Source: Achromobacter pulmonis
GTDB taxonomy: Bacteria; Pseudomonadota; Gammaproteobacteria; Burkholderiales; Burkholderiaceae_B
DNA length: 64,000 nt
Assembly (NCBI RefSeq): GCF_902859765.1
Contig: NZ_CADIJV010000022.1
Location: forward strand, 1 to 64,000
Reading direction: 5' to 3'
Shown here: one piece after another, positions 10,433 to 26,120 of the stretch
Numbering within the stretch: the stretch's first letter is position 1
How the letters are laid out: each line of letters starts with the position of its first letter
Notes under the pieces: generated by a model
What the model was told of the DNA's origin: nothing
Databases searched by the model: none
What the model saw: only the letters and a program-made list of their open reading frames with translations
Made by a program: the position numbers and the translations under genes

Positions 10433-12325
10433 TCATTTCAAGAAACCCGTGGAAATCCACGGCACCGCGGCCACGATCACGATCCCGACCGCAATCGAGC
10501 AAAGATAGCCCGCAATAGGCCGGATGCCGGCTTCAGGGGCGACTCGGCCAATTGCGCATGCCGCGTAATAGCCCACGCCGAAGGGGGGCGCGAAGAGGCC
10601 TATACCCATGGACAGGATGACGACCATCGCGTAGTGCACTTCGTGGATACCCATCTGGTGCGCGATCGGAAACAGCAGCGGGCCGAACAGCACGATGGCC
10701 GGAATCCCCTCCAGCACGCTGCCCAGCACCACGAAGGCGACGATGGACACGGCCATGAAGGTGGTCGCGCCGCCGGGCAACCCTCCCATGACGCCAGCCA
10801 GTTGCGTGGAGAATCCCGATTGGGTCAGCGCCCAGGCCATGCTGGTGGCGGTGCCGATGATCAGCAGTATGGCGCCGGACAGGCAGGCCGTGTCGACCAG
10901 CATCGGCAACAGGCGTTTGGGGTCGAAGCAGCGGTAGATCAATAGCCCCACCAGCGTGGCGTAGACGATGCCGATGGTGGAGACTTCGGTCGCGGTGGCG
11001 ATCCCTTCGATCACAGCGGCGCGGATCACGAAGGGGAGCGCCAGCGCAGGCAAGGCCACCCACAGCGCGTGGGCAATCTGGCGGCCGGTGGCTTTGCGGA
11101 CGCCGCTGAGATCTTCCCGGCGATTGCGCCACCAGACGACGAGACAGAGCATCACGCCCAGCACCAGGCCCGGCAGCAGGCCGCCGGTGAACAGCGCCGT
11201 GATCGACACGCCCGTGACCGACCCTATGGTGATCAGCACCAGGCTGGGCGGCACGGTTTCGGTTTGAGCGCCGGTGGCGGACAGCAGTGCGACCAGATTG
11301 CCTTCGTCGGCGCCGCGCTTGCGCATCTCGGGAAACAGCACGGGTGCGACCGCTGCCATGTCGGCCGCCTTGGCGCCGGATATGCCGGACACCACACACA
11401 TGGCACCAATCAGCACGTAGGAAAGGCCGCCGCGGACATGGCCCAGCAAGCTTGCCAGAAAGGCCACCATGCGTTGCGCCATTCCCGTCATTTCGATCAG
11501 CACGCCCAGGAAGACGAAAAGCGGCACGGCCAACAGGATCAGGTGGGACATGCCTTCATCCATGCGCCCCACCACGACCATCATGGGCAGGTCGGTGGTC
11601 AGCGACAGGTACCCGAAGGTGGCCAGTCCGAAGGCAAAGGCAATCGGCACGCCCGCGAACACGGTGGCGGCGACCACGCCGACGAAGAAGATCAGCAGGT
11701 TCAAATTGCCCAGGCCGGCCAGCACGGGCTGCAGCGCGGCCATGGCGGCCACCACGCCGCCCACCAGCAATATCGCCAACCCGGTGGTGCGCCACTGCGC
11801 CTTTTCGACCAGGCGCAGCAACGCAATCAGCAGCATCAGTGCGCAGCCCACGGGCAGTGCCGCCGCTCGCCAGGCGTTGGGGATTTCCATGGCGGCGGTC
11901 GTGACGTAGCGCTCTTCGGAGGCGTATTCAAAGCCGGGGGCTTGCAGCATCAGCAGGAACGCCAGCGCGGCGGCGATGGATACCATGTCCAGCACTGCCC
12001 GGGTAGAGGGCGATGCCTTGTTGACCAGCGCAGCCATGCGCATGTGTTCGCCGCGGCGGAACGCGACCACCGCGCCCAGCATGGCCAGCCACAGGAACAG
12101 GATGGAGGCCAGTTCGTCGGACCAGACCAGCGGCGTGTGCAGCACATAGCGCGCGACGACGCCCGAGAACAGAATGACGATCTCGGCGACCACCAGGATG
12201 GCCGCCGGGATTTCGACCAGGTGTCCCAGCATGCGGTCCAGCGCGGCGGCCCAAGGCCGGCTGACTGCCGCGGGCGCCCCCGCGTCGGTCAACACGTCCC
12301 CGACGTGGGTCATTGCCACTCTCAT
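10433..12325 (-). CDS. TRAP transporter fused small and large permease (DctQM)
   Basis: 630 residues from ATG 12325, which overlaps the stop of the binding-protein gene (ATGA). Residues about 20-190 are a DctQ-type four-helix domain with WSDELASILFLWLAMLGAV; from about 200 on is the DctM-type domain with a dozen hydrophobic helices. It sits in the inner membrane and imports an organic acid using the sodium gradient with DctP. The substrate cannot be read from sequence; the neighbouring acyl-CoA ligase and thiolase suggest a carboxylate. Start choice: the frame extends to 12388, but that part lies inside dctP. Confidence 0.93.
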   Translation of the reverse strand: MRVAMTHVGDVLTDAGAPAAVSRPWAAALDRMLGHLVEIPAAILVVAEIVILFSGVVARYVLHTPLVWSDELASILFLWLAMLGAVVAFRRGEHMRMAALVNKASPSTRAVLDMVSIAAALAFLLMLQAPGFEYASEERYVTTAAMEIPNAWRAAALPVGCALMLLIALLRLVEKAQWRTTGLAILLVGGVVAAMAALQPVLAGLGNLNLLIFFVGVVAATVFAGVPIAFAFGLATFGYLSLTTDLPMMVVVGRMDEGMSHLILLAVPLFVFLGVLIEMTGMAQRMVAFLASLLGHVRGGLSYVLIGAMCVVSGISGAKAADMAAVAPVLFPEMRKRGADEGNLVALLSATGAQTETVPPSLVLITIGSVTGVSITALFTGGLLPGLVLGVMLCLVVWWRNRREDLSGVRKATGRQIAHALWVALPALALPFVIRAAVIEGIATATEVSTIGIVYATLVGLLIYRCFDPKRLLPMLVDTACLSGAILLIIGTATSMAWALTQSGFSTQLAGVMGGLPGGATTFMAVSIVAFVVLGSVLEGIPAIVLFGPLLFPIAHQMGIHEVHYAMVVILSMGIGLFAPPFGVGYYAACAIGRVAPEAGIRPIAGYLCSIAVGIVIVAAVPWISTGFLK

Positions 12326-13335
12326 GACAGGCTCCCGACGGATTGCTCCAGCAGGCCCCAGGCCTTTTCGCCGTACTTTTCTTTCCAACCGCTATAGAAG
12401 CCGGCCTTGCGCAGGACCGCGCGGATGGGTTCCGGCTCTGGCGTATTGAACGCCAGTCCTTGTTCCGCCAGCTTGGTTTGCAGCTGGTTGTTCAGCGCCA
12501 GAACGTCGGCGCGTTCAGCCATGCCGGCCGCATTGATGTGTTTGGCGACGACTTCACGGATGTCGGCGGGCAGCTTTTCCCAGGCGCGGCGGTTGCCAAG
12601 GAACCAAAAGCCATCCCACATGTGGTTGGTCATCGAGCAGTACTTCTGCACTTCGTAGATCTTGGCGGTCTGAATGATGGCCAGGGGATTCTCCTGGGCG
12701 TCCACCACACGGGTCTGCAGCGCGGAATAGGTTTCGTTGAAGTTGATGCTGGCGGGCGAGGAACCCAGGGCCTTGAACATCGAAGTCCAGAGCGGGCTGA
12801 CGGGCACGCGGATTTTCAGGTCGCGGAAGTCGTCCGGGCCGTTGATGGCGCGGTTGCTGGTCGTAATCTGCCGAAAGCCGTTGTCCCAAATATGGTCCAT
12901 GACGAACAGGCCCTTGCCGTTGATTTCCTTGCGGATGTGCGCGCCCAGGTCGCCATCCATCGCCTTCCAGACGCTGGCGTAGTCGGGAAACGCAAAGCCG
13001 ACGCCGCTGATGGAGGCGGTGGGCACCAGGGTCGACAGGATCAGGCCCGACAGCGTGAAGAACTCGACAGCGCCGGCGCGCAGCTGGCTCAGGGTGTCGG
13101 TGTCGGATCCCAGCTGACTGCTGGGGAACACGGCCAGCTCGAAGCGCCCGCCGGTGTCCCTGAGGATGTTCTGCGCGGCCTCGGTGGCGCGCAGGTTCAT
13201 CGGATGCGAGGGCGGCAGGTTGTTGGCGTACTTGTAGCGGAACTGTGGCGCCGCCAGCGTCCGTTGGAACGGCGCCAGGGCCAGCAACGCGCCGCCTCCC
13301 GCGGCGCGCATGAGGTTGCGTCGAGTCGTGTTCAT
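12322..13335 (-). CDS. TRAP solute-binding protein (DctP family)
   Basis: 337 residues from ATG 13335 (AAGGAG 7 nt upstream). The N-terminus MNTTRRNLMRAAGGGALLAL carries a twin-arginine motif, so export may be by Tat. The mature part shows DctP family features such as FPSSQLGSDTDTLSQLRAG and the arginine-containing LKIRVPVSP stretch that binds the substrate carboxylate. It delivers the ligand to the DctQM permease encoded 4 bp overlapping downstream. Transcribed divergently from the IclR gene; a perfect palindrome at 13423-13439 lies in its promoter region. Confidence 0.94.
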   Translation of the reverse strand: MNTTRRNLMRAAGGGALLALAPFQRTLAAPQFRYKYANNLPPSHPMNLRATEAAQNILRDTGGRFELAVFPSSQLGSDTDTLSQLRAGAVEFFTLSGLILSTLVPTASISGVGFAFPDYASVWKAMDGDLGAHIRKEINGKGLFVMDHIWDNGFRQITTSNRAINGPDDFRDLKIRVPVSPLWTSMFKALGSSPASINFNETYSALQTRVVDAQENPLAIIQTAKIYEVQKYCSMTNHMWDGFWFLGNRRAWEKLPADIREVVAKHINAAGMAERADVLALNNQLQTKLAEQGLAFNTPEPEPIRAVLRKAGFYSGWKEKYGEKAWGLLEQSVGSLS

Positions 13336-13422
13336 GCTGTCTCCTTGGTTATGAGATCCGGCCGCCATCGAGGACGGCCGGATAAAGCGCCTTGCCAGGC
13401 CTATTGCTTTATCTTTGCATGC

Positions 13423-13439
13423 GGTCCATTATATGGACC
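13423..13439. promoter_or_regulatory. Palindromic operator, site 1 (perfect arms)
   Basis: GGTCCATTATATGGACC: 7-bp arms GGTCCAT / ATGGACC around TAT. It lies in the dctP promoter region, 84 bp before its start codon. The same motif occurs at three other places in this locus, so it is the probable binding site of the adjacent IclR-family regulator. Confidence 0.75.
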
Positions 13440-13531
13440 ATATCAATACCCTTAAATTTATTTAATCACACTGATTCACTAGCGTAAATCAATAAAACTG
13501 GTGCAGAATGAAAAAACAAAATCAATCACAT

Positions 13532-13548
13532 GGTCCACTAAATGGACC
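13532..13548. promoter_or_regulatory. Palindromic operator, site 2
   Basis: GGTCCACTAAATGGACC, one arm mismatch from site 1. It lies 22 bp before the preferred GTG start of the IclR-family gene, a position fit for autorepression. Confidence 0.7.
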
Positions 13549-13570
13549 TGATAATGAAACAGGCGGAGAT

Positions 13571-14398
13571 GTGACGGAGACCTCATCCCAGGTCGGAGGC
13601 GCTCAGGCGATTTCCCGCGCCATGCTGGTGCTGCGCGCGGTGTCGCGCACCCGCGGCGAAGGCGCGGGCCTGTTGGCGTTGACGCGCGACACGGGCATGA
13701 GCAAGCCCACCGTGCACCGCCTGCTGGCCGCCCTGGCCGCCGAGGGCATGGTCGAGCAGGACCCGGCCAATCGCCGCTACTTCCTCGGCCCCGAATGCCA
13801 TGTGCTGGGCAACATCGCCAGCGAGCGTTTCGGCATCAACCGCCTGGCCGCGCCGGTGGTGGCGCGGCTGGCGCACGAATGCGGCGATTCCGCCTTTTTC
13901 TCGCTGCGCCGCGATGTGTTCGCGGTCTGCGTGTTGCGCGAGGACGGCGACTACCCACTCAAGACCCATGTGCTGCTGCCGGGCGACCGCCACCCGCTGG
14001 GCATCGGCGCCGGCAGCCTCGCCATCCTGGCGGCGCTGCCCGATGACGAGGTCGAGGCCTGCCTGCAGGCCAATGCCGCCCTGATCGAGCGGCGCTATCC
14101 GCATTATTCGGTGCCGCTGATCCGCACGCTGGTCGACGAGGTGCGCGAGCAGGGCTACGCCGTGAACCGCGGCCTGGTGGTGCCCGGTTCGTGGGGCATC
14201 GGCATGCCGCTGCGCGACGAGCAAGGCCATGTGCTGGGCGCGCTCAGCATCGCTGCGGTCGAATCGCGCATGGACGAGGAAAGACAGTTCCAGCTGGCCA
14301 AGCTGTTGTCACGCGAGGCCAAACGCCTGCTCGCGCAGGCCAACCCGGCAGGCCGCGAGGCGCGGGCGCGCCCGCCGGCCGCCAAGCCCCGGTCCTGA
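13571..14398 (+). CDS. IclR-family transcriptional regulator
   Basis: 275 residues from GTG 13571 (AGGCGGAG just upstream). An in-frame ATG at 13508 would add 21 residues but has no ribosome site and would place operator site 2 inside the gene. The winged helix-turn-helix (about 15-75; TGMSKPTVHRLLAALAAEGM) precedes the IclR effector domain (about 90-250). The family binds small aromatic or keto acids and represses or activates catabolic genes. It is divergent from the TRAP genes and points to the thiolase 45 bp downstream. The four GGTCCAT-type palindromes suggest it controls both this operon and the one starting at 20251. Confidence 0.92.
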   Translation: MTETSSQVGGAQAISRAMLVLRAVSRTRGEGAGLLALTRDTGMSKPTVHRLLAALAAEGMVEQDPANRRYFLGPECHVLGNIASERFGINRLAAPVVARLAHECGDSAFFSLRRDVFAVCVLREDGDYPLKTHVLLPGDRHPLGIGAGSLAILAALPDDEVEACLQANAALIERRYPHYSVPLIRTLVDEVREQGYAVNRGLVVPGSWGIGMPLRDEQGHVLGALSIAAVESRMDEERQFQLAKLLSREAKRLLAQANPAGREARARPPAAKPRS

Positions 14399-14443
14399 TC
14401 CGCCAAGCCGGCAGGGACGGGGCTGCCAACAGAGGAGACAGCA

Positions 14444-15616
14444 ATGAGCAAGCGTGCCGTCATCGTGGGGTGGTCGCACATCCCGTTCGGCAAACTCGAC
14501 GACCCCGACACCGAAAGCCTGATGGCGCGCGTGTCCGGCGCCGCGCTGGATCATGCAGGCGTGAGCCCCGATGCCGTCGACGGCATCTATGCCGGCGTCA
14601 TGAACAGCGGATTCCAGAAGCAGGATTTCCAGGCGGCGCTGGTGGCGCTGGCCGACCCGTCGCTGGCCCACGTGCCGGCGACGCGACTGGAGAACGCCTG
14701 CGCCACCGGGTCGGCCGCGCTGTACGCGGCCATGGATTTCATCGAGGCGGGGCGCGGCCGCGTGGCGCTGGTGGTGGGAGCCGAGAAGATGACCGCTCGC
14801 TCCACCGAGGACACGGGCGACATCCTGCTCAATGCCAGCTACCGCAAGGAAGAGGCCACGCTGCCAGGCGGCTTTGCCGGCGTGTTCAGCCGCATCGCCA
14901 CGGCCTATTTCGAGCGCCACGGCGACCATGGCGAGGCGCTGGCCCGCATCGCCGCCAAAAACCACGCCAATGCGTTGGACAACCCCTACGCGCAGATCCG
15001 CAAGGACCTGGGCTTCGAGTTCTGCAATACCGTTTCCGATAGAAACCCTTATGTGGCGGCGCCGCTGCGGCGCACCGATTGCTCGCCCATCTCCGACGGC
15101 GCGGCGGCGCTGGTGCTAGCCGACGCGGAAACGGCGGCGGGCCTGCGGCGCGCCATCGGCTTTCGGGCGCGCCGCCACGTTAATGACTTCCTGCCGCTGA
15201 GCCGGCGCGATCCGATCGCCTTCGAGGGTGCGGCGCGAGCCTGGCGTGAGGCGCTGGCCGATGCCGGCGCGACCCTGGACGACCTGAGCCTGGTGGAAAC
15301 GCACGACTGCTTCACCATCGCCGAACTGATCGAATACGAGGCCATGGGCCTGGCGCCGCGCGGCCACGGCGCGCGGGCATTGCGGGAAGGCTGGGTGCAG
15401 AAGGGCGGGCGCCTGCCCATCAATCCCTCGGGCGGGCTCAAGGCCAAGGGGCATCCAGTGGGCGCCACCGGGGTGTCGCAGCACGTCATGGCGTGCCTGC
15501 AACTGGCCGGCGAGGCTGGCGCCATGCAGGTGCCGGACGCGACACTGGCCGGCGTCTTCAACATGGGCGGCGCGGCCGTGGCCAACTACGTCAGCATCCT
15601 GGAGCGCGTCAAATGA
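14444..15616 (+). CDS. Thiolase-family protein (SCP2/acetyl-CoA acetyltransferase type)
   Basis: 390 residues. The nucleophile C86 is in ENACATGSAAL; the second half has ETHDCFT and GGLKAKGHPVGATG with the catalytic histidine. These are SCP2-thiolase-type signatures. It would cleave a beta-ketoacyl-CoA or form one. It is the first gene of an operon with an acyl-CoA ligase (4-bp overlap). The canonical C-terminal CxG cysteine of degradative thiolases is replaced by the GVFNMGGAAVANY stretch, as is common in this subfamily, so substrate and direction are uncertain. Confidence 0.9.
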   Translation: MSKRAVIVGWSHIPFGKLDDPDTESLMARVSGAALDHAGVSPDAVDGIYAGVMNSGFQKQDFQAALVALADPSLAHVPATRLENACATGSAALYAAMDFIEAGRGRVALVVGAEKMTARSTEDTGDILLNASYRKEEATLPGGFAGVFSRIATAYFERHGDHGEALARIAAKNHANALDNPYAQIRKDLGFEFCNTVSDRNPYVAAPLRRTDCSPISDGAAALVLADAETAAGLRRAIGFRARRHVNDFLPLSRRDPIAFEGAARAWREALADAGATLDDLSLVETHDCFTIAELIEYEAMGLAPRGHGARALREGWVQKGGRLPINPSGGLKAKGHPVGATGVSQHVMACLQLAGEAGAMQVPDATLAGVFNMGGAAVANYVSILERVK

Positions 15617-17256
15617 GCGGCCCACAGGAGCAGGCGCTGGCGCCGCCGGGAGGCGTCGCGCCAGTCTCGCGGCGGGTGATGAACCTGGGCCACTTCCTGG
15701 TGCAGGCCGCGCGCCGCCACCCCCTGCAGCCGGCCCTGATCTGCGGTGACACCCGCTACAGTTGGCGTGAACTCGATGCGCGGACGGCGGCGCTGGCGCA
15801 GGCGCTTGCTGACCGCGGCATCGGCAAGGGGGACCGCGTGCTGGTGCATTCGCGCAATTGCTTCGAGTTCGTCGAAACACTGTTTGCCACGTTGCGACTG
15901 GGGGCGGTGTGGGTGCCGACCAATTTTCGAATTTCTCCCGACGAAGCCGTGTATCTGGCTCGAACCTCTGGCGCCAAGGCATTCCTGTGCCATGGCGACT
16001 ACCCCGGGCATGCCGCGGCGGTGATGGAGGCCGTGCCGCACTTGTCGCTATTGGCGCGGCTGGGACCGGGCGACTTTCCCGCGCTGGATGCGGCCGACCT
16101 GATCAAGGCGCGGCTAGGCGCGACACAGGTTTGCGCCGATGTGGATCACGATGACCCCTGCTGGTTCTTCTTCACTTCCGGCACGACCGGACACCCCAAG
16201 GCGGCGGTGTTGACTCATGGGCAGATGGCCTTCGTCATTACCAACCACTTGTGCGACCTCATGCCCGGCACCACCGAGCGTGACGTGAGCCTGGTGGTGG
16301 CGCCCCTGTCGCACGGCGCCGGCATCCACTTCCTGACCCAGGTGGCGCGGGCCGCCTGCACCGTCCTGCCGGCTGGCGCGCGCTTCGATGCCGACGAGAT
16401 CTGGCAGCTGGTCGAGCGGCACGGCGTGACCAATATGTTTACCGTGCCCACCATCGTGAAGATGTTGGTCGAACATCCTTCCGTGGACGCCTGGGACCAC
16501 CGCAGCCTACGGTACGTCGTCTATGCCGGCGCGCCGATGTATCGCGTGGATCAGAGGCGGGCGCTGGAAAAGCTGGGTCCGGTGCTGGTGCAGTATTTCG
16601 GGCTGGGCGAGGTCACCGGCAACATTACGGTGCTGCCGCCCGCGTTGCACGACCCCACGGATGGCCCAGGCGCGCGCGTGGGCACCTGCGGCTACGCGCG
16701 TACCGGCATGCAGATCAGCATCCAGGACGATACGGGCCGGTCATTGGCGGCGGGCGAAACGGGTGAAATCTGCGTATGCGGCCCGGCGGTATTTGCAGGG
16801 TATTACGCCAACCCGCAAGCCAATGCGAAGGCGTTTCGCAATGGCTGGTTTCGCACCGGGGACCTGGGCTGCATGGATGAAGAGGGGTTTCTCTACATCA
16901 CCGGCCGGCAGTCCGATATGTACATCTCGGGCGGCTCAAACATCTACCCGCGAGAGGTAGAGGAGAAGGTGCTGGCGCATCCCGCGATTGCCGAAGCCGC
17001 AGTGCTGGGCGTGCCGGATCAGACCTGGGGAGAAGTCGGTGTGATGGTCTGCGTGCTGCGCGCGGGCCATGCGCTGAGCGAGGAAGAATTGATGGACTGG
17101 ATAACACCTCGCGTGGCGCGCTACAAACTGCCGCGCCAGATCTTCTTCTGGGATGCCCTGCCGCGTTCGGGCTACGGCAAGATCACCAAGAAGCTGGTGC
17201 GCGATGCCCTCTATGAACGCGGCTGCCTGACCGAGGCCACCGAAGCCGCGCGCTAG
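15613..17256 (+). CDS. AMP-binding acyl-CoA ligase
   Basis: 547 residues from ATG 15613, overlapping the thiolase stop (ATGA); the open frame upstream is not used. The P-loop-like motif FFTSGTTGHPKAAV is at about 186-199, the hinge GWFRTGDLG and RQSDMYISGGSNIYP follow, and the C-terminal catalytic lysine is in SGYGKITKK (about 518-526). It activates a carboxylic acid to acyl-AMP and then acyl-CoA. With TRAP import, thiolase and SDR it suggests uptake and CoA-dependent breakdown of one substrate, but it could also supply a starter to the carrier-protein pathway. Confidence 0.93.
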   Translation: MSGPQEQALAPPGGVAPVSRRVMNLGHFLVQAARRHPLQPALICGDTRYSWRELDARTAALAQALADRGIGKGDRVLVHSRNCFEFVETLFATLRLGAVWVPTNFRISPDEAVYLARTSGAKAFLCHGDYPGHAAAVMEAVPHLSLLARLGPGDFPALDAADLIKARLGATQVCADVDHDDPCWFFFTSGTTGHPKAAVLTHGQMAFVITNHLCDLMPGTTERDVSLVVAPLSHGAGIHFLTQVARAACTVLPAGARFDADEIWQLVERHGVTNMFTVPTIVKMLVEHPSVDAWDHRSLRYVVYAGAPMYRVDQRRALEKLGPVLVQYFGLGEVTGNITVLPPALHDPTDGPGARVGTCGYARTGMQISIQDDTGRSLAAGETGEICVCGPAVFAGYYANPQANAKAFRNGWFRTGDLGCMDEEGFLYITGRQSDMYISGGSNIYPREVEEKVLAHPAIAEAAVLGVPDQTWGEVGVMVCVLRAGHALSEEELMDWITPRVARYKLPRQIFFWDALPRSGYGKITKKLVRDALYERGCLTEATEAAR

Positions 17257-17343
17257 TCACCTTGACCGGCAGCGCAGACTGCCGCGCAATTCGCCGCGCG
17301 GCGGCAACACAACCACTACACCAATGAACGAGGAGGCTGGATC

Positions 17344-18108
17344 ATGGAGATGACGCAAGAGGCAATCCTGGTGACGGGCGGCGCGTCCGGCATCGGGCTG
17401 GCGGTCGCGCGCGGCCTGCTGGACGCAGGGCGATGTGTGCTGGTGGCGGATGTTTCCCAGGAGCGGCTGGACGCTATGCGCGACCTGGCGCCGGCCGACC
17501 AGTTGGGTCGCGTGCGTATGGATGTATCGGACGAGGCGCAGGTAGTGGATGCGCTGGAGCGGCTGGAACTGGACTTCGGCCCGATATCGGGCCTGGTCAA
17601 TTCCGCCGGCATCGGGCGCGATCTTCCGTTCCTGGACACCGACACCGCCTTGCTGCGGCGCATCATGGAAGTGAATCTGATCGGCTCTTTCGTCGTGGCG
17701 CGAGAGGCCGCCCGGCGGATGCGGGAACGACGGCGCGGGTCCATCGTCAATATCGCGTCGGTGTCAGGCATACGCGGCAATGCGGGGCGCGCCGCGTATG
17801 GCGCATCCAAGGGGGCTGTCGTGACCTTGACCCGCGTGATGGCGGTGGAGCTGGCGGCCTATGGCATCCGGGTCAACGCCGTGGCGCCTGGCCCGATCGA
17901 AACACCGCTGGTCGGGCAGATGCACACCGCCGAAGCCCGCCAGGCCTGGCAGCAGGTAGTGCCCCAGCACCGGTATGCCGCACCCGAAGAGCTCAACGGC
18001 ACCATCGGATGGTTGCTTGATGAGTCCAAGTCCAGCTATGTTACCGGGCAGATTATCTGCGTGGATGGAGGGTTCACGGCCGCAGGCATGTTGCCCGCCA
18101 TGCACTGA
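17344..18108 (+). CDS. Short-chain dehydrogenase/reductase
   Basis: 254 residues with the Rossmann motif TGGASGIG (11-18), NAG-type motif in LVNSAGIG, serine in IVNIASVSG, and YGASK (Y about 152, K about 156). The D in VADVS after strand 2 favours NAD(H). It oxidises an alcohol or reduces a ketone, possibly a 3-hydroxyacyl-CoA, matching the thiolase two genes upstream. An 87-bp gap with no obvious terminator separates it from the ligase; ribosome site GAGGAGG lies just before ATG. Confidence 0.93.
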   Translation: MEMTQEAILVTGGASGIGLAVARGLLDAGRCVLVADVSQERLDAMRDLAPADQLGRVRMDVSDEAQVVDALERLELDFGPISGLVNSAGIGRDLPFLDTDTALLRRIMEVNLIGSFVVAREAARRMRERRRGSIVNIASVSGIRGNAGRAAYGASKGAVVTLTRVMAVELAAYGIRVNAVAPGPIETPLVGQMHTAEARQAWQQVVPQHRYAAPEELNGTIGWLLDESKSSYVTGQIICVDGGFTAAGMLPAMH

Positions 18109-18163
18109 GTTTGTCATTGCCCAGGTTCCACTTATTGCGCCACAAGCGCACGGAGTCCAGACC

Positions 18164-18745
18164 ATGCGATACACCACCGTGGATCGTTCGTTGCGGGGAA
18201 TACAAGCACTGCCCCGCCCCAGAACGCTGATACACCCGGGGGCGTTCAACCCGGTACGCATTCATAGCCGCTCGGCCGGGCATGGCCGCCATATCCGCCT
18301 GTCGTTGCGCCCCGGCGTCAGCCTGTTTGACGCCCTGGTCGGTGTACTGGCCAGCGCCGGCGTCGCCAATGCTTCGATGACCATACTGGGCGGCGCCTTC
18401 CGGCACATCGACTATTGCACGGCACCGCCTGACCCCCAACACCGGATGGTTGTGGCCTATACCGCGCCCATTCCCGCCGGGCCGGCCTACCTGATTTTTG
18501 GCAACGCCACGCTGGGCAAGACCGATGCCGGCGCGCCCCTGGTGCACTGCCATGCCGCCTTTTGTCGCGATGGCCTCGCGCCGCAGGGAGGGCACATCAT
18601 TCCGCAGACGAGTATCGTCGGGGATCGTCCCGTGCCGGTGCTCGTCACCTCGCTGGAGGGGTTCGAGCTGCGCGCGACCTACGACGCGGAAACCAATCTA
18701 CGGCTGTTGCAACCCCAAGGAGGCGATCACCATGAACTCGCCTGA
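18164..18745 (+). CDS. PPC/DUF296-domain protein 1
   Basis: 193 residues from ATG 18164 (CGGAG upstream); the longer frame overlaps the SDR gene. The PPC (DUF296) fold is suggested by ILGGAFRHIDYCTAPP, GPAYLIFGNATLG and LVHCHAAFCRDG, with clustered histidines that could bind metal as in the family. A leading segment (1-60) is unlike typical single-domain members. It overlaps the next PPC gene by 14 bp, so the two probably form a hetero-oligomer; PPC proteins are trimers. The chemical role is unknown; it has no AT-hook. Confidence 0.75.
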   Translation: MRYTTVDRSLRGIQALPRPRTLIHPGAFNPVRIHSRSAGHGRHIRLSLRPGVSLFDALVGVLASAGVANASMTILGGAFRHIDYCTAPPDPQHRMVVAYTAPIPAGPAYLIFGNATLGKTDAGAPLVHCHAAFCRDGLAPQGGHIIPQTSIVGDRPVPVLVTSLEGFELRATYDAETNLRLLQPQGGDHHELA

Positions 18746-19130
18746 AATCGAAAGCGGCAGCATGGGCCGCGTTGCCTATGCGCGGATCGGCCCGAACGAG
18801 GACTTGATCCAGGGCGTGGAAAAACTCTGCCTGGCTGAGGGTTTTCGCAACGCGTTCGTGCGCGGGGCGTTGGGCAGCCTAGTGGATGCCTGCCTCTACA
18901 CCCGCGAAGGCGGATATCGCCACATCGCGGGCCCGGCGGTGGAGATCGTCAGTCTCGCCGGTGAAGTACGCGCGCAGCCGGATGGGTCCTTGACGGCATC
19001 GCTGTCGGGGGTGGTGGCGGATCCGGAGGGCCAAGTGCATGGCGGCCCCTTCGTGCCCGGCGCCAACCCGATCTGCATGACGTTCGAGGTCACGCTGGAG
19101 GAATGGCTGCCGACGCCGAGCGGGGGCTGA
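18732..19130 (+). CDS. PPC/DUF296-domain protein 2
   Basis: 132 residues, ATG 18732 preceded by AAGGAGG. Features of the PPC fold: AFVRGALGSLVDACLY, a middle EIVSLAGEV strand, then GVVADPEGQVHGGPFV with a histidine-glycine turn, and FEVTLEEWLP near the end. It starts inside the last codons of PPC protein 1, showing translational coupling. Bacterial PPC proteins are poorly understood; tandem pairs inside a catabolic operon are unusual. It ends the rightward operon, 17 bp before the convergent TSUP gene. Confidence 0.78.
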   Translation: MNSPEIESGSMGRVAYARIGPNEDLIQGVEKLCLAEGFRNAFVRGALGSLVDACLYTREGGYRHIAGPAVEIVSLAGEVRAQPDGSLTASLSGVVADPEGQVHGGPFVPGANPICMTFEVTLEEWLPTPSGG

Positions 19131-19146: not shown

Positions 19147-19911
19147 TCAGAACCAATACTTCGCCGCATAGATCACGGTCATGACGGCGCCGGTGACGAT
19201 GACGAACGCCCGGATCGCCGAAGCAGGCAGGACACGTATCAAGTGGCCGCCCAGGTAGCCGCCTGCCAGCGCGCCGGCCAGCATGAACAGGGTGGCCGGC
19301 CAATGGACCGAGCCCTGCACGATAAAGATGACGATCGCCGCGGCGGTGACAAACGTCGCCAGCAGGTTCTTGAGCGACTTGATGGCGCGCAGATTGCCGG
19401 GGTCCGTGATGGAAATCACGGCGGTCAGGATCACGCCCAGCCCGGCGCCAAAGAACCCCCCATAGACAGAGGCCAACGCGATAGGCAATACGCCGCGCGC
19501 CGGGCCGTCCTGCGCCTGGTCGCCGCGCCGGCGCGCGCTCCAGGCCTGCACCTGCGGCGCAAAGGCAAACAGCAAGGTGGCGAACGCGATCAGGGCCGGC
19601 ACGGGCAGGATGAAATAGGCGGGGGGAATGGCAAGCAGGATGAATGCCCCCAGCGCGCCGCCCGCGGTGGTGGCGGCCGAGAGCAACCAGAACCGCCGAT
19701 CGGGGGCCGGCAGGTTTTCACGGTCAGCCAGGGCCGCCAGGATGTGGCCGGGTGATATGGCCACCGCGCTCGATGCATTGGCGATGACGGGCGGCAGGCC
19801 CGCCGCCACCATCGCGGGAAAAGTAATCAGCGTGGCGCCACCCGCCAGCGCATTGATGACGCCGCCCAGCGCACCCGCGCCGGCCAGCAGTGCCGCCATG
19901 CTCCATTCCAT
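19147..19911 (-). CDS. TSUP (TauE/SafE) family permease
   Basis: 254 residues with about eight hydrophobic helices. The N-terminal repeat has GGVINALAGGATLITFPAM and the second SVYGGFFGAGLGVILTA, the two TSUP signatures. Members move sulfonates, sulfite or small organic acids across the inner membrane. It faces the PPC genes and is divergent from the methyltransferase operon, sharing the promoter region with two copies of the palindrome (19941 and 20036). It may export the pathway product or import a precursor. Confidence 0.9.
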   Translation of the reverse strand: MEWSMAALLAGAGALGGVINALAGGATLITFPAMVAAGLPPVIANASSAVAISPGHILAALADRENLPAPDRRFWLLSAATTAGGALGAFILLAIPPAYFILPVPALIAFATLLFAFAPQVQAWSARRRGDQAQDGPARGVLPIALASVYGGFFGAGLGVILTAVISITDPGNLRAIKSLKNLLATFVTAAAIVIFIVQGSVHWPATLFMLAGALAGGYLGGHLIRVLPASAIRAFVIVTGAVMTVIYAAKYWF

Positions 19912-19940: not shown

Positions 19941-19957
19941 GGTCCATATAACGGACC
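19941..19957. promoter_or_regulatory. Palindromic operator, site 3
   Basis: GGTCCATATAACGGACC, arms matching 6 of 7 bases. It lies 30 bp upstream of the TSUP start codon, in position to repress that gene. Confidence 0.7.
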
Positions 19958-20035
19958 TATATATATCGCGTGAAATTTATTATTGCCTATTTTGGCAGCA
20001 GGTATAGAATTCTCGAAAATAAATGAATATATATT

Positions 20036-20052
20036 GGTTCATATTGTGGACC
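20036..20052. promoter_or_regulatory. Palindromic operator, site 4 (degenerate)
   Basis: GGTTCATATTGTGGACC, arms matching 5 of 7 bases, 95 bp from site 3 on the same helical side region. It precedes the methyltransferase operon by about 200 bp; the leader between them (20053-20250) has no convincing gene. Confidence 0.55.
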
Positions 20053-20250: not shown

Positions 20251-21240
20251 ATGGATGTGAGCTTCATGGCGTTTTCCCGTTTGGCGTTCGGGCATTGGGA
20301 GGGGCAACCCTTGTATGCCCTGGCCGATCTGGGTATTGCCCAACGTTTGTCCGACCCCCGCACGTGCACCGAGCTGGCTCGAGAACTGGGTTGCGAATCC
20401 GAGCCGCTGGAGCGCTTGCTGGACTGCGCGGTGGCGCAAAAACTGCTGATATGCGAGGACGGGCGCTACGCCAACACCGATCTCAGCGCGCGCTTTCTCA
20501 CCGAAGACAGCCCCGAATCCCTGTTGTGCTGGATCCGGATCATGGATCGCTGGAAGCGGCCCTGGATGCAACTGGCCGAAGCCGTGCGACGGGGAGAGGC
20601 CGTCGATAACCAATCGAAGTGGCTGGGCGAAGACCCCCAGTTCATGCGGGATTTCATCCTGGGCATGCATCAGTTTGCGTCCCGTTCGGGCCCTGCGTTC
20701 GCAGAGGCGCTGAAAGACGTGCCCATTCGCCGCCTGGTGGACGTGGGTGGAGGCGCCGGCACGTATTCCCTTGCCCTGTGCGCGGCGCGGCCCGAAATCA
20801 CCGCACAGGTTCTGGACCTGGCGCCGGTGGTCGAGATCACGCGTGAAACTGCGCAGGCTGCCGGCTTGGCGGACCGCGTCAGTGCCCAGGTGGCCGACTA
20901 TCGCCAGGACCGTTTCGGCGAGGAGGCCGACGCGCTGCTTTTTTCCAACGTGTTGCATCAAGAGAGCGCGGAGGTCTGTCGATCGATGCTGCACCGTGCG
21001 TGGCAGGCGCTGCGCCCAGGCGGGACCTTGCTGGTGCAAGGCTACTTCCTTGCCGAGGACCGGCGTGCGCCGCTGTTTACCACCTTGCACAACCTGTCCG
21101 CGTTGGCGCTGTGGGACGGCGGGCGCAGTTGGACTGTGGGCGACATGCAGGCGCAGATCGCGGTTGCCGGCTTCGAGCGCCAAGCCGTGCTGCGCCAGGA
21201 GAGCAGCGGTTTCTGCCTGCTGTCGGCCGTCAAGGTCTGA
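20251..21240 (+). CDS. SAM-dependent O-methyltransferase (acetylserotonin OMT type)
   Basis: 329 residues from ATG 20251, with AGGAGGG 7 nt upstream; the frame runs back to 20023 without a start of this quality. The N-terminal winged-helix dimerisation domain (1-100) precedes a class I Rossmann fold with SAM motif VDVGGGAGTYS (about 163-173) and a later LRPGGTLLVQG. This is the plant-type/CrtF-like small-molecule O-methyltransferase family used in natural-product tailoring. As first gene of the carrier-protein operon it probably methylates a hydroxyl, perhaps an N-hydroxy or oxime oxygen made by the AurF-like enzyme; that step is inference. Confidence 0.9.
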   Translation: MDVSFMAFSRLAFGHWEGQPLYALADLGIAQRLSDPRTCTELARELGCESEPLERLLDCAVAQKLLICEDGRYANTDLSARFLTEDSPESLLCWIRIMDRWKRPWMQLAEAVRRGEAVDNQSKWLGEDPQFMRDFILGMHQFASRSGPAFAEALKDVPIRRLVDVGGGAGTYSLALCAARPEITAQVLDLAPVVEITRETAQAAGLADRVSAQVADYRQDRFGEEADALLFSNVLHQESAEVCRSMLHRAWQALRPGGTLLVQGYFLAEDRRAPLFTTLHNLSALALWDGGRSWTVGDMQAQIAVAGFERQAVLRQESSGFCLLSAVKV

Positions 21241-21271
21241 CGCGATATCCACTTATTGAACCGGAGCCTAT

Positions 21272-21520
21272 ATGTCCACACCCACCGTCACCGATACCGA
21301 AGCCGAAGTGATTGCCTGGCTGAAGGAAAACCGCAATGCGCAGGTCGAAGGCATCAAAGAGAAGAACCTGATCGAAGAACGCATCCTGGACAGCATGCAG
21401 TTCCTGGACTTCATCATGTTCCTGGGCGAACTGGCGGGACGAGATGTCTCTACCGCCATCACCGTCGACGACCTGCGCACGGTGGATGCCATCGTCAATT
21501 TCGTCCACGTCCAGCGCTAG
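21272..21520 (+). CDS. Stand-alone acyl/peptidyl carrier protein
   Basis: 82 acidic residues with the phosphopantetheine site S41 in ILDSMQFLDF, followed by helices typical of carrier proteins. DSM replaces the usual DSL. It has no fused partner. The phosphopantetheinyl transferase (24608-25129) would add the arm, and the amino acid:[carrier protein] ligase (23464-24249) would load an amino acid on it. It lies 31 bp after the methyltransferase and 22 bp before the oxygenase. Confidence 0.88.
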   Translation: MSTPTVTDTEAEVIAWLKENRNAQVEGIKEKNLIEERILDSMQFLDFIMFLGELAGRDVSTAITVDDLRTVDAIVNFVHVQR

Positions 21521-21542
21521 TCCGGGCGGCAAGGAGGGCATC

Positions 21543-22436
21543 ATGGAAATCGACTACGCAAGAATCGGCAGACTGATGACGCTATCCAAAGGACGTTCGC
21601 ATGACCCCTACGAGCGCTTTGAGTGGCCCGCCAGAATCCCGGACGACCAACCCTGGTGCAGCAATGACTTGCTCACCACCTACGGAACGCCGTTGCAAGC
21701 GCAGTTGGACGCGGCGCAGCAGATACGGCTCAGCAAATGGGAGGCGGTCAATTTCTTCAGCCTCAACGTGCATGGCATCAAGGGGGTACTGAACTTTGTC
21801 AGCCGGTGCATCTACGAAGAGCGCTATGCCGATGTGTCCGAATACCTGCATGTCTTCATGGGTGAAGAGAACTTCCACATGTGGTATTTCGCCAAGGCTT
21901 GCTTGGATTATGCGGGAAAGATATATCCGTCGATTCAGTTGCAGGGCGATGCGCAGGCGTCCACGCCAGAACTGGGCGACTTATACATGTTCGCCAGCAC
22001 GCTGATCTTTGAAGAGTTCGTCGACTACTACAACCATAAAGTCGGCACGACGGACGGCATCACCGAGATCCTCAAACAGATCAACTACCAGCATCATGTC
22101 GACGAATCCCGCCATGTGTCCTTTGGCCGGGAAATGGTACCCCGCCTTTACCGGCTGGCGCTGGAACGCGCGGACGACCCGGACGCGATCCGGGCGGAGG
22201 TGTCGCACACGGTGACGAACATGTTCCGATACTTCATCAGCCTGATGTACAACCCGGCTGTCTATGCCGATGCCCAGGTCTACGAGCCGCTGGGATTTCG
22301 CAACGGCAACGCCATGCGCAACGCGCTGCGGTCGCACCCGGCGCGCAAGGCTGTCCACGAGCAATGGTTCAAGCGTAGCGCCGCCTACTTCACCAAACAG
22401 GGGTTGGTGACGGACTTGAATCTGGCCGCGCTGTAG
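21543..22436 (+). CDS. AurF-type di-iron N-oxygenase
   Basis: 297 residues from ATG 21543 (AAGGAGGG upstream). Metal-ligand pattern of the AurF family (PF11583): E109-x2-H112 in MGEENFHMW, E157/E158 in IFEEFVDYY, and H184-x3-E188-x2-H191 in HHVDESRHV; the first ligand may be E67. AurF relatives oxidise an amine to hydroxylamine, nitroso or nitro. Here the likely substrate is an amino group carried on the neighbouring carrier protein. Relatives act on aminobenzoate or on peptide-carrier-bound valine/leucine in diazeniumdiolate pathways (MgoC/HamC). The substrate here is unknown. Confidence 0.85.
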   Translation: MEIDYARIGRLMTLSKGRSHDPYERFEWPARIPDDQPWCSNDLLTTYGTPLQAQLDAAQQIRLSKWEAVNFFSLNVHGIKGVLNFVSRCIYEERYADVSEYLHVFMGEENFHMWYFAKACLDYAGKIYPSIQLQGDAQASTPELGDLYMFASTLIFEEFVDYYNHKVGTTDGITEILKQINYQHHVDESRHVSFGREMVPRLYRLALERADDPDAIRAEVSHTVTNMFRYFISLMYNPAVYADAQVYEPLGFRNGNAMRNALRSHPARKAVHEQWFKRSAAYFTKQGLVTDLNLAAL

Positions 22437-22450
22437 CGCAGAGGCACACC

Positions 22451-23407
22451 ATGGCGCAGATTGTCAGCAGTCCCCAGGTGGAAGCGCTTTTGGGCGCACG
22501 CTTGCCCGTGCTGCAAGCCGGCATGGGCGGCGTGGCACAACCGGAACTGGCGGCCGCCGTGTGCGAGGCCGGCGCGTTCGGCATGATTGGCCTGTACCGC
22601 CACACGCGTGACGAAATCGGCCAGCTAGTCGCGCAGACCGCCGGATTGACCAAGGCGCGCTTCGGCGTAAATCTGGTGCCGTTCGTGCTGGATGCGGACG
22701 CATTGCTGGATCGATTGGCGTATGTCGCGGACCGGCCGGAACGGCCGATCGTGACCTTCTTCGGCTTACCTGACCACACCGTGCTGCGCGCCTTGCCGAC
22801 GGGAATGGACTACGGTGTGCAAGGGGGCACCTGGGAGGAGCTGGACGCGGGGTTCGATGCGGGCGCGCGCTTCGGGGTGTTGCAAACAACAGAGGCGGGC
22901 GGTCATCACCTGGGCAAGCTCACGCGCGCGCAAGCGCTGGATCAGGCCGCCCGCCTTGGCGTCGACAAGCGCATGGTGTTTCTGAGCGGCGGCATCAGCA
23001 ACGCGGCCGAGTTGCGCCAGGTGCTGCACGCCGGATTCTCCGGCGTATTGTGCGGCACAGTATTCGCGGCCACCCGGGAATCCGCCGCGCACGAGCGCTA
23101 CAAGCAGGCGATCGTGGACGCCTCACCCGGCGACACCGTGGTCACCGACCGCTTCAGCGTGGGCTGGCATACCCATTGCCACCGGGTGATCCGTAACGCG
23201 AGCTGCGAGGGGACGCTGCCGGCGGGTGTGATTGGCTTTGCGCACTATTTTGGGAAACGCTATCCCATCCTGCGTTACAGCGTGGCAGTGCCTACTACGC
23301 AGACCGAGGGTTTGATTGAAGACATGGCGTTGTATTGCGGAACGTCCTGCAAGGACGCGCATTCCATCCGTAGCGTGCAGCAGGTGCTGGCCGACTTGAC
23401 GGCGTAA
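22451..23407 (+). CDS. Nitronate monooxygenase / 2-nitropropane dioxygenase-like flavoprotein
   Basis: 318-residue FMN TIM-barrel protein. LPVLQAGMGG (19-27) is the N-terminal flavin-binding turn; EAGGHHLG contains the family histidine (H152); FLSGGISNA and FSGVLCGTVF hold the phosphate. The family oxidises nitronates (class I NMO) or reduces enoyl-ACP (FabK); EAGGHH fits the former. Beside an N-oxygenase it could finish or detoxify a nitro/nitronate intermediate. It follows the oxygenase by 14 bp. Confidence 0.85.
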   Translation: MAQIVSSPQVEALLGARLPVLQAGMGGVAQPELAAAVCEAGAFGMIGLYRHTRDEIGQLVAQTAGLTKARFGVNLVPFVLDADALLDRLAYVADRPERPIVTFFGLPDHTVLRALPTGMDYGVQGGTWEELDAGFDAGARFGVLQTTEAGGHHLGKLTRAQALDQAARLGVDKRMVFLSGGISNAAELRQVLHAGFSGVLCGTVFAATRESAAHERYKQAIVDASPGDTVVTDRFSVGWHTHCHRVIRNASCEGTLPAGVIGFAHYFGKRYPILRYSVAVPTTQTEGLIEDMALYCGTSCKDAHSIRSVQQVLADLTA

Positions 23408-23463
23408 GGCTTCGTCCTATCCGCGCGCTTAAGTGAATTCAGTGACCACTAGGAGATTGCATC

Positions 23464-24249
23464 GTGATAATCGAAAAGCAATGGCATCAGGTAAAGAACG
23501 TGCTGCAGGGAAAACTGGATGAAATATTTTCGATCGCGCCAGACGCCACCGCGGAGTTCGACAGTTTGCTAGCCCATGAAGAGATCAACGCGCTGGGGTA
23601 TGTGCGCAATTTTCCGCATCTGACCTGCGTCATGTGCTCGATTGAAGAGGGAGAGTTGCTGGGATTCGCGCGCGGCCAGCGCAAGCTGGACCGAGATTTC
23701 AAAGCGCTCACAGCCGACGTCGCCCTGTTGCCGGCGACTTGCTACAAGGTCTACCTGGGGCTGCAGGGGCAGCGCCTGGGCGGCGCGCGGGTGGAGTCCT
23801 GCATTGCGCGCTGCTTCCGGCACGAGGACAAGGCGCTGGACCGTTACCGTGCCTTCAATTTCACCATGAAGGAGTACGTGTACCTGGGCACTGCGGAGGG
23901 CGCGCAGGCGCATCTGGAAGCAGGTTACGATCGCCTGTTCTCCTTCTTCGCGCAGTTGGGAATCAACGCGGGTTGCGAAGAAGCCAACGATCCCTTCTTT
24001 GATTCAGGCAGCGGCGTGGCGCGGCTGTCGGCATTGACGCCCACCAAGCGTGAACTGGTGTTCGACGGCCATGCGGTGTCTTCGCTGAACTATCACCGCA
24101 ACTACTTCGGTGAGAAATTCGATATCCGCCTGGAAGACAATTTCGTCCATACCAGTTGTGTTGCGTTTGGATTGGAGCGTTGGATCTCCATGTTCAAGGA
24201 TCGTTTCGGCAATGCGGCCGATGCGCTTGCCGCGCTGGAAGGCGCCTAG
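23464..24249 (+). CDS. Amino acid:[carrier protein] ligase (SerRS-like)
   Basis: 261 residues resembling the catalytic core of atypical class II seryl-tRNA synthetases without a tRNA-binding domain. Motif 2 is IARCFRHEDKALDRYRAFNF (R119, E121); motif 3 is AFGLERW (E238, R239). C93, E137 and C232 fit the Cys-Glu-Cys zinc triad of the aa:CP ligases from Bradyrhizobium, with similar spacing. Those enzymes adenylate glycine or alanine and pass it to a dedicated carrier protein, not to tRNA. The carrier protein lies three genes upstream. The amino acid cannot be told from sequence. Stop abuts the next gene's ATG. Confidence 0.85.
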   Translation: MIIEKQWHQVKNVLQGKLDEIFSIAPDATAEFDSLLAHEEINALGYVRNFPHLTCVMCSIEEGELLGFARGQRKLDRDFKALTADVALLPATCYKVYLGLQGQRLGGARVESCIARCFRHEDKALDRYRAFNFTMKEYVYLGTAEGAQAHLEAGYDRLFSFFAQLGINAGCEEANDPFFDSGSGVARLSALTPTKRELVFDGHAVSSLNYHRNYFGEKFDIRLEDNFVHTSCVAFGLERWISMFKDRFGNAADALAALEGA

Positions 24250-24633
24250 ATGGAGCGTCCGATGCTAGAGGCGCGGGCGTTGTTCCAGACAGGCCAGCAG
24301 TTCGAGAAAACCTGCGTGGTGGATGCCGCCGCGAGCTCGCTGAACTACGGCGGGGATCTGGACGTGCTGGCCACCCCCGTCATTGTCTATTGGATCGAGT
24401 CGTACGCCACGGAATGCATCCGGTTGGCAGGCGGCGGGCGCTGCGGGTCGGTGGGACATGCGGTCAGCGTGCGGCACGTGGCGCCGGCGCTGCGGGGCAG
24501 CGCGGTGCATCTGACGATTACGGTCGAGACCTTGTTCGGCAATTCCTTGCGGTTCAGCGCTCGCGCCGTGACTGGCGAGGGGGGCACCCTGATCGCGACC
24601 GGCACGCATGACCGAACCCTCGTCGAACTTTGA
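24250..24633 (+). CDS. FlK-type hotdog thioesterase
   Basis: 127 residues with the hotdog fold. T42 (in LATPV), E50 (YWIESY) and H76 (SVRHVAP) fall at exactly the numbers of the catalytic triad of fluoroacetyl-CoA thioesterase FlK. The tail GTLIATGTHDRTLVEL is also FlK-like. It would hydrolyse a thioester, either releasing the amino-acid product from the carrier protein or clearing a toxic acyl-CoA. It begins directly after the ligase stop and overlaps the transferase gene by 26 bp. Confidence 0.82.
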   Translation: MERPMLEARALFQTGQQFEKTCVVDAAASSLNYGGDLDVLATPVIVYWIESYATECIRLAGGGRCGSVGHAVSVRHVAPALRGSAVHLTITVETLFGNSLRFSARAVTGEGGTLIATGTHDRTLVEL

Positions 24634-25129
24634 CGTCACGGTAGTGCTGGGTGCCCAGCGCTGCGCGCGTGACGGGCAGGCCGCGCGCACCAAGTTGGGC
24701 AAGCCCTACCAATCCGGTCATGCCGGCTTCGGTGTGAGCGACAGTTGCGGCATACAGGCGCGGCTGTACGCCAACCGCAAGTATGTGGGCATCGATATCG
24801 AGCATCTGGACCGCCCTGACCTGGCGGTCCGCCAACAGCGCCTGTCGGCGTGGCTGGCGCGGCGGGACCGCGTCACAGTGGATTTCCTGGCCGGCTGGGT
24901 CGCGCGCGAGGCTTGTGCGAAAAGCGTGGGACTAGGGCTGCTGCATGCGCTGCCGCGTTTGTCCATCACCTGGAAGCGGCCGCTTGAGCAGCCCGGGCAG
25001 GAAGAAATTGGCCTGACCTTCAGTCGCTGGCGATTCGTGGCCCGGTGCGAACGGGTCGGCCGGGTGCTGCTCTGCGTGTGCTATCGGGCCGAATATGGCA
25101 AGCCCCGCATCGCCTTGCTGCGGCCTTGA
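24608..25129 (+). CDS. 4'-phosphopantetheinyl transferase
   Basis: 173 residues with the two transferase motifs: VGIDIEHLDR (D63, E65, magnesium) and WVAREACAKSVGLG (W97, E101, K105). It would convert the cluster's carrier protein from apo to holo form using CoA. The short length is of the AcpT/Sfp half-size class. It is the last gene of the operon, which supports a self-contained carrier-protein pathway. Confidence 0.88.
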   Translation: MTEPSSNFDVTVVLGAQRCARDGQAARTKLGKPYQSGHAGFGVSDSCGIQARLYANRKYVGIDIEHLDRPDLAVRQQRLSAWLARRDRVTVDFLAGWVAREACAKSVGLGLLHALPRLSITWKRPLEQPGQEEIGLTFSRWRFVARCERVGRVLLCVCYRAEYGKPRIALLRP

Positions 25130-25457: not shown

Positions 25458-25835
25458 CTACGCAGCTTTGCGCATGTCCTCGGTGAGATGCATATCGATG
25501 TGGATATCGGCGAATGGGCATATCAATCCGCCATCCTCATCTTGCTCCAGAAGCCCAAGATCCACGAGAGCGTGCGCATCCTGGTGAACGCGCTTCACGT
25601 CCCGGCCCAGGCGGCGGGCCAGTTCGCGCACGCCGACTCGACCTGCGCCTAACATCTCCCGCACCATGTTCCATCGCAGCTCCGTCAACTGCCCAAAGAA
25701 TGCAGCTGCGGATTCGAAGTTCAGCCTCTCCCCCTGATACTCGCCGGACTGCGCCCCGGCGACAGCGCGCTTGCTGGCGCTGGTCAGAAAGGCACGCCAA
25801 TCCTGATTGATAGTGATAGTCAGAGTCCGCTTCAT
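25458..25835 (-). CDS. HTH regulator/antitoxin-like protein
   Basis: 125 residues from ATG 25835 (GGAGG 9 nt upstream). The C-terminal half has a winged helix-turn-helix: GVRELARRLGRDVKRVHQDA, then LVDLGLLEQDEDGGLICPF. It resembles COG4190-type predicted regulators paired with DUF6516 proteins in putative toxin-antitoxin loci. The upstream partner is frameshifted. It overlaps the partner's end, so translation is coupled. Confidence 0.75.
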   Translation of the reverse strand: MKRTLTITINQDWRAFLTSASKRAVAGAQSGEYQGERLNFESAAAFFGQLTELRWNMVREMLGAGRVGVRELARRLGRDVKRVHQDAHALVDLGLLEQDEDGGLICPFADIHIDMHLTEDMRKAA

Positions 25836-25837
25836 GT

Positions 25838-26120
25838 TCAGGCCCTCCATTTCGTGACCTCAGCGACGAAGTCCTCTAGCAATTGCGCCACACCGCGAAA
25901 TTTGTAGGGAAACTCTTCGTCTCCCTGGTGCCTGTGGTCGCCCTTGCCGCGCTCGTTATCGAAACCAACGATCCGTTGCCCCCCCACGGGCATATACCAA
26001 CCGGTACTTGAACCCGTGCGAAGTCGGCGGAACAGGCTGTGGCACCTTCCAGATAACAATTTGCATAATGCCGCCTTCGGCATCGACGCTTTTCTCGTTG
26101 ATGATCAGAGTAGCGCTCAT
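25838..26120 (-). pseudogene. DUF6516-like toxin partner, frameshifted in a G7 tract
   Basis: Starts at ATG 26120 (MSATLIINEKSVDAEGG). The first frame reads to KYRLVYARGG and then stops; the conserved second half (RIVGFDNERGKGDHRH, then EEFPYKFRGVAQLLEDF) continues in another frame to 25838. The switch lies in a run of seven G on the minus strand (25979-25985). Six G would give the uninterrupted family sequence. This may be a dead gene, a phase-variable one or a sequencing error. Confidence 0.75.

Follow-up and report, generated by a model that had tools for sequence, protein, structure and literature searches.

In the glycine-nitronate route of He & Ryan (Nat Chem 2021), as described by papers that cite it (PMC9967187, PMC12154687), glycine bound to a carrier protein is converted into a nitronate by a diiron oxygenase, and the nitronate is subsequently O-methylated or denitrified. 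According to the same descriptions, the systems concerned are the enteromycin carboxamide pathway and related denitrifying cassettes, and a passage of PMC12183544 states the same scheme of glycine nitronate formation and O-methylation. The present analysis deals with seven intact open reading frames (ORFs), all located on the + strand between positions 20251 and 25129 of a 64-kb window, i.e., the whole stretch of 64,000 nucleotides analysed from Achromobacter pulmonis. The operon fits best as a variant of the known pathway type: it encodes both nitronate branches, brings its own loading enzyme, thioesterase and exporter, and is devoid of any nonribosomal peptide synthetase (NRPS).

A first-pass annotation of the same DNA had assigned to these genes a complete logic going from the priming of a carrier protein to the release of an oxidised amino acid, and had named no described pathway of this kind. 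The predicted enzyme roles are supported, as judged from family matches, residues and co-conservation, whereas the claim of an undescribed pathway has to be given up, since a glycine-nitronate route built on a carrier protein and a diiron oxygenase is published (PMC9967187, PMC12154687, PMC12183544). Among the papers listed by full-text searches of PMC, none dealt with this gene set.

The seven genes and the proposed pathway

The gene set, the protein families, the conserved residues, the co-inheritance and the shared palindromes discussed below were computed, families being assigned with the curated cut-offs of Pfam and NCBIfam. The genes are tightly packed, as first described, with successive gaps of 31, 22, 14, 56, 0 and -26 bp. 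They encode a COMT-type O-methyltransferase (OMT, 20251-21240) with dimerisation and Methyltransf_2 domains (PF00891, 88.6 bits; PF08100, 41.6 bits), a stand-alone carrier protein (CP, 21272-21520) with a putative phosphopantetheine-bearing Ser41 in the motif ILDSMQF, a ferritin-like AurF-type diiron oxygenase (AurF, 21543-22436; PF11583, 94.7 bits), a nitronate monooxygenase-like protein of a flavin mononucleotide-dependent family (NMO, 22451-23407; PF03060, 90.6 bits), a seryl-tRNA synthetase (SerRS)-like amino acid:carrier-protein ligase of 261 aa with a GTG start (SerL, 23464-24249), a FlK-type hotdog thioesterase (FlK, 24250-24633; PF22636, 65.9 bits), and a 4'-phosphopantetheinyl transferase (PPT, 24608-25129). 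OMT, AurF, NMO and FlK pass the Pfam cut-offs. PPT falls narrowly under its own (PF01648, 24.9 vs 25 bits), SerL falls under two (PF00587, 19.7 vs 29.3; NF005479, 114.1 vs 357), and CP displays only sub-threshold ACP/DltC matches, with no PP-binding match in Pfam and a best NCBIfam acyl carrier protein (ACP) score of 20.3 vs a cut-off of 65. These three proteins are thus identified from their motifs, from the operon context and, for SerL, from its match to a solved ligase; in PPT, the stretches GIDIE and W..REA..K are taken to be the motifs of the family.

We consider it reasonably probable that the operon encodes an NRPS-free glycine-nitronate pathway. This reading is built on the family matches, on the residues conserved in AurF, SerL and FlK, on the published route combining a carrier, a diiron oxygenase and a methyltransferase, on the co-inheritance of a TauE/SafE-type exporter with SerL (5/5 genomes), and on palindromes shared with a neighbouring regulator gene; glycine, the nitronate, the dominant branch, the export and the binding of the regulator are what we infer from them. 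PPT would convert CP into its holo form, and SerL would charge it with a small amino acid, for which glycine is the best candidate. AurF would then oxidise the tethered amine to a nitroacetyl or nitronate thioester, which OMT could O-methylate on CP or which, alternatively, NMO could oxidatively denitrify to a glyoxylyl thioester and nitrite. Finally, FlK would hydrolyse the activated thioester and the TauE/SafE-type protein would export the resulting small acid, transcription being probably controlled by the IclR-family protein encoded at 13.5 kb via paired palindromes.

In AurF, residues E67, E109, H112, E157, H184, E188 and H191 are invariant in all seven rows of the alignment and correspond, as mapped by motif, to six metal ligands plus a seventh histidine (H184), which a passage of PMC12154687 gives as characteristic of the N-oxygenases in the AurF-type family. 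The distances E109-H112 and E157-H184-E188-H191 are identical to those presented for Dob3 in the same source, and the two other ligand spacings differ (PMC12154687). AurF also matched solved poxin-type proteins (E≥0.045), which was dismissed as chance. The predicted structures of SerL and AurF, with a mean predicted local distance difference test score (pLDDT) of 44, were not used.

SerL matches the solved amino acid:[ACP] ligase 1 (3mey) with E=1.4e-20, and its residues C93, E137 and C232, invariant in 7/7 alignment rows, align with the Cys, Glu and Cys of this enzyme, which we take to be zinc ligands. Since it does not reach the NF005479 cut-off, SerL represents a subfamily related to the amino acid:[CP] ligase equivalog rather than a member of it. 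In the partner CPs, the motif S(M/L)xF occurs in 12/12 of the cassette proteins that were compared; the residue before it is D in 11 cases and N in Streptomyces NBC_01431. FlK possesses T42, E50 and H76, presumably the catalytic residues, and its H76 aligns with H76 of the solved FlK, in spite of a weak overall match (E=0.0085).

The NMO protein is open to two readings. It scores far above the Pfam cut-off (90.6 vs 28), which predicts its membership of the nitronate monooxygenase family, and it matches solved FabK-type enoyl reductases as well as solved nitronate monooxygenases, its top NCBIfam match being FabK (79.5 vs a cut-off of 453) with FabK also among the top solved matches. NMO resembles FabK as much as a nitronate monooxygenase. 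In an alternative scheme, the amine would be oxidised only to an oxime or nitroso stage, OMT forming an O-methyl oxime, the flavoprotein acting as a reductase or dehydrogenase and the product being a (methoxyimino) acid. Precedents exist in the cited literature, where family enzymes are described as stopping at nitroso in some pathways (PMC12154687) and where the aldoxime of akazaoxime and althiomycin has been proposed to arise from a diiron oxygenase (PMC9967187). Nevertheless, the four aligned cassette NMOs all retain AGGH(H/L)L, Pfam places the protein on the nitronate monooxygenase side, and the related chemistry, as far as these sources describe it, yields nitronates, so that an oxime end-point is regarded as rather unlikely.

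As the first-pass annotation had remarked, an NRPS is missing: no adenylation or NRPS domain was detected by Pfam among the seven operon proteins. This bears on another candidate product, a diazeniumdiolate of the valdiazen/leudiazen type or a pyrazine N-oxide signal made as in the pvf/mgo/ham systems, with AurF acting on carrier-bound valine or leucine; PvfB is indeed listed as a family N-oxygenase of valdiazen/pyrazine N-oxide biosynthesis in PMC12154687. The seven genes comprise neither an NRPS nor the other pvf/ham partners, and NMO and FlK would have no evident role in such systems. In addition, small amino acids are the substrates of the solved SerRS-like ligases, and a product of this kind appears very improbable.

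Occurrence of the operon and of related cassettes

Within a genus sample of 43 Achromobacter genomes, i.e., the genome of the window and 42 others, SerL occurs in five, all of which hold the full operon in the same gene order (the window and loci L003, L004, L005 and L081). Loci L003, L004 and L005 were equated with the SerL matches by their agreeing contig positions, and the CP of L081 was read from the alignment. Across the family, SerL was found in 6/268 genomes, the sixth being a 29% match with no AurF within its 16-kb region. A single-sequence contig scan with AurF returned four loci, the nearest named ones belonging to A. insuavis, A. dolens and A. ruhlandii at 94% identity. The ratios of nonsynonymous to synonymous substitution rates (dN/dS) range from 0.06 to 0.27 over 12 gene comparisons (0.06-0.27 for the seven genes against L003; 0.10-0.24 for five genes against L081, FlK and CP being left out), and the operon genes are under purifying selection. 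Chance or mis-called ORFs are ruled out by the order kept in five genomes and by these ratios, and the recurrence of AurF with SerL elsewhere likewise places the operon beyond chance. A plasmid origin was rejected as well, since 72,556 plasmid records give one near-identical piece, of 56 bases.

The TauE/SafE-type exporter gene (TauE, 19147-19911, - strand; PF01925, 121 bits) is divergent from the operon. Its orthologs are 92-100% identical in exactly the five of the 43 genomes that bear SerL, the next best matches reaching 37-39%, which argues for including TauE in the operon unit. A TauE gene of 35% identity also follows the operon of A. vitis.

Outside Achromobacter, a tblastn search of the plasmid records with AurF and SerL matched 11 and 94 records, respectively; at least five match both (two of A. 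vitis, one of Tistrella and two of Streptomyces), and seven loci were then inspected. Counting the Achromobacter operon, the two genes share one cluster in eight lineages, including other classes and the Actinomycetota, with NMO in 4/8 and an OMT of this type in 2/8. The plasmid of A. vitis F2/5 shows the order CP-AurF-NMO-SerL-FlK-PPT-TauE without this OMT; its AurF frame (L018, 12001-12891) contains one in-frame stop near the N-terminus, the annotated gene beginning after this stop. Tistrella mobilis and a near relative (G1176) possess AurF-CP-SerL-NMO-OMT with a FlK-type gene nearby. Streptomyces NBC_01431 associates AurF-CP-SerL-NMO with an alpha/beta hydrolase, a second CP-like gene and PPT, and Streptomyces NBC_00335 has AurF-CP-SerL-PPT alongside ketosynthases. 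In Salinarimonas, AurF and SerL occur alone, the best NMO match of the genome being 8.8e-5. Depending on the lineage, the thioesterase-type gene is FlK-like (Achromobacter, A. vitis, Tistrella) or an alpha/beta hydrolase (Streptomyces NBC_01431).

The presence of NMO without this OMT in A. vitis and Streptomyces NBC_01431 would fit a route devoted mainly to denitrification, forming nitrite and glyoxylate, with OMT acting on some other substrate, and denitrification is named in the title of the He & Ryan work, as cited in PMC9967187 and PMC12154687. OMT is nevertheless the first gene of the operon and is under purifying selection, and its 52% identical ortholog adjoins NMO in both Tistrella-type cassettes; a purely denitrifying role of the operon is accordingly held improbable.

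The last two of the eight lineages are represented by genomes G025 and G369. Achromobacter genome G025 harbours a second, distinct AurF-CP-SerL cassette (L080, 7840-9905) followed by a hydrolase gene, with LysR upstream and an EamA gene nearby. In G369, a genome of the same order as the window, AurF-CP-SerL precedes a thioester-reductase-like gene (L077, 8214-11464), which suggests release as an aldehyde; its CP reads TSV in place of DS(M/L). In Azospirillum and Nostoc, AurF sits instead with adenylation/NRPS genes. The Azospirillum argentinense locus (L019, 8914-11047) groups CP, an LCM-type methyltransferase and AurF within an NRPS/polyketide synthase (PKS) cluster that also contains a gene annotated as arginine 2,3-aminomutase, and resembles an O-methyl nitronate assembly line. 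On plasmid pF1D18A of S. clavuligerus (L024, 7902-10086), SerL-CP-PPT lies close to condensation-domain and phytanoyl-CoA-dioxygenase-family genes, with no AurF in the inspected stretch. Two Streptomyces proteins encoded directly upstream of AurF (L020, 10993-11922; L022, 10846-11937) share 31% identity and match no Pfam family, and in G695 (L079, 7670-10741) AurF and CP are flanked by two ketoacyl-synthase-III-like genes.

An AurF profile run on even samples of 369 genomes from the class of the window and 385 genomes from that of Salinarimonas separated a high group (at least 224 bits) from a low group (at most 93 bits), some genomes of the high group being themselves rows of the profile. The high group comprises the window and three others in the first sample, and Salinarimonas and two Tistrella-type genomes in the second, a gap which marks AurF as a distinct and rare subfamily. 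SerL similarly appears to form a separate ligase subfamily, often clustered with AurF. Viral contigs scanned with the AurF alignment yielded no confirmed relative.

Paired palindromes and a neighbouring IclR regulator

The divergent intergenic region between TauE and the operon measures 339 bp and contains two operator-like palindromes of the form GGTCCA-N5-TGGACC, at 19941-19957 and 20036-20052, each with 1 mismatch. All five carriers possess such a pair, with 0 or 1 mismatch per copy and copies 93-106 bp apart. The pair surrounds a conserved block of the five-genome alignment, within which lies a weak candidate sigma-70 promoter (19983-20010, + strand; TTGCCT-16-TAGAAT); between 19850 and 25450, 3 sigma-70-like sites were found vs a mean of 1.5 in shuffles.

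The same palindrome occurs twice without mismatch at the IclR-family gene (13508-14398, + strand; PF01614, 60.5 bits; PF09339, 50.7 bits), whose true start may be further in, namely at 13423-13439 upstream of the gene and at 13532-13548 in its start region. The gene is present at 79% identity or more in 14/43 Achromobacter genomes, including all five carriers, and the pair, with its 109 bp spacing, was found in 12/12 loci tested (5 carriers and 7 non-carriers of these 14 genomes). A degenerate form, at up to 2 mismatches, has six sites in the A. pulmonis genome, four of which are the operon pair and the IclR pair, vs two sites for a control pattern. First-order Markov resamples of the window (200) gave 0.115 palindromes per 64 kb and no pair. 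The paired palindrome linking the operon promoter and the IclR gene is a new observation, and the same pair at both places points to the IclR protein as a regulator that probably also controls the operon. Both Tistrella-type loci have one one-mismatch palindrome before AurF, and their best IclR homologs (45-46%) also have one upstream; these two genomes, being close relatives, count once, and three-mismatch palindromes, which occur 20 times per Tistrella-type locus, were ignored.

The IclR gene heads a cluster (10433-19130 in the window) that includes a TRAP transporter (DctQM, DctP), a thiolase, an AMP ligase (15622-17256), a short-chain dehydrogenase/reductase and a PCC-domain gene; it directly adjoins the operon in the window and in L081, and also occurs in genome G012, without SerL. 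On the other side of the operon, an HVO_A0114-family gene lies just downstream on the opposite strand (25458-25850). Between 9000 and 29000, no known RNA family was detected at the gathering threshold.

Significance and comparison with the closest systems

Several observations weigh against the glycine-nitronate reading and its regulation. SerL remains far under the curated ligase cut-off, glycine is designated as the most likely substrate by ligase homology, and known SerRS-like ligases accept alanine too. NMO could instead be a FabK-like reductase, and the retention of both OMT and NMO is puzzling should the two draw on the same nitronate. The distribution is patchy as well: 38/43 Achromobacter genomes are without SerL, SerL-type ligases are found without a close AurF (94 vs 11 plasmid records), half of the eight lineages have no NMO in the cassette, and two of those that have it, A. 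vitis and Streptomyces NBC_01431, have no OMT of this type and no palindrome at up to 1 mismatch in their loci. Moreover, at one mismatch the bare palindrome is found 37 times across the genome vs 182 times for its reversed control; this density of about 0.4 per 64 kb exceeds the Markov figure, so that single palindromes mean little and close pairs count; by a hand estimate, 37 random sites would yield about 0.03 pairs within 120 bp.

To our knowledge, the biological role of the SerRS-like amino acid:carrier-protein ligases is still largely open, and the glycine-nitronate reading would assign them a definite chemical function, open to testing, across several classes of bacteria. It would also define a nitronate pathway of minimal size with two branches, for whose reconstruction seven small genes could be enough, and the probable IclR operator hints at how expression is controlled, so that the product could be sought directly. 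Achromobacter infects people with cystic fibrosis. As a speculative and doubtful extension, the free-standing pathway, starting from a single amino acid and with no assembly line, might make, export and regulate a tiny O-methyl nitronate or a similar N-oxygenated acid, NMO serving as a safety valve and IclR coupling production to the TRAP-uptake/acyl-CoA cluster; such a compound would be a signal or weapon unrecognised in Achromobacter.

The pvf/mgo/ham clusters (leudiazen, valdiazen, fragin) are NRPS-based and contain other partner genes. They share with the operon an AurF-type N-oxygenase acting on a carrier-bound amino acid, and their NRPS loading module has no counterpart among the seven genes. 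Like the SerRS-like ligases exemplified by 3mey, SerL has a class II synthetase core, the Cys-Glu-Cys residues and a partner CP, and may work in the same way; it differs from them by its shorter length (261 aa) and its score of 114.1 bits vs 357. The thioesterase resembles the fluoroacetyl-CoA thioesterase FlK in belonging to the same Pfam family, with T42, E50 and H76, in contrast to its weak sequence match and to its presumed substrate, a CP thioester.

The glycine-nitronate cassettes of He & Ryan, as depicted by the citing papers, come closest, with a carrier-bound amino acid, an AurF-family diiron oxygenase and a nitronate that is O-methylated or denitrified. In the Achromobacter operon, an AurF-family oxygenase similarly stands beside a CP, albeit a sub-threshold one, and the unit holds putative nitronate-processing genes of both kinds. 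Unlike these cassettes, by the same description, it joins OMT and NMO, adds a SerRS-like ligase, its own PPT, a FlK thioesterase and a TauE exporter, and is free of NRPS/PKS genes. The combination of both predicted nitronate fates with NRPS-free loading, release, export and probable IclR control would set this variant apart.

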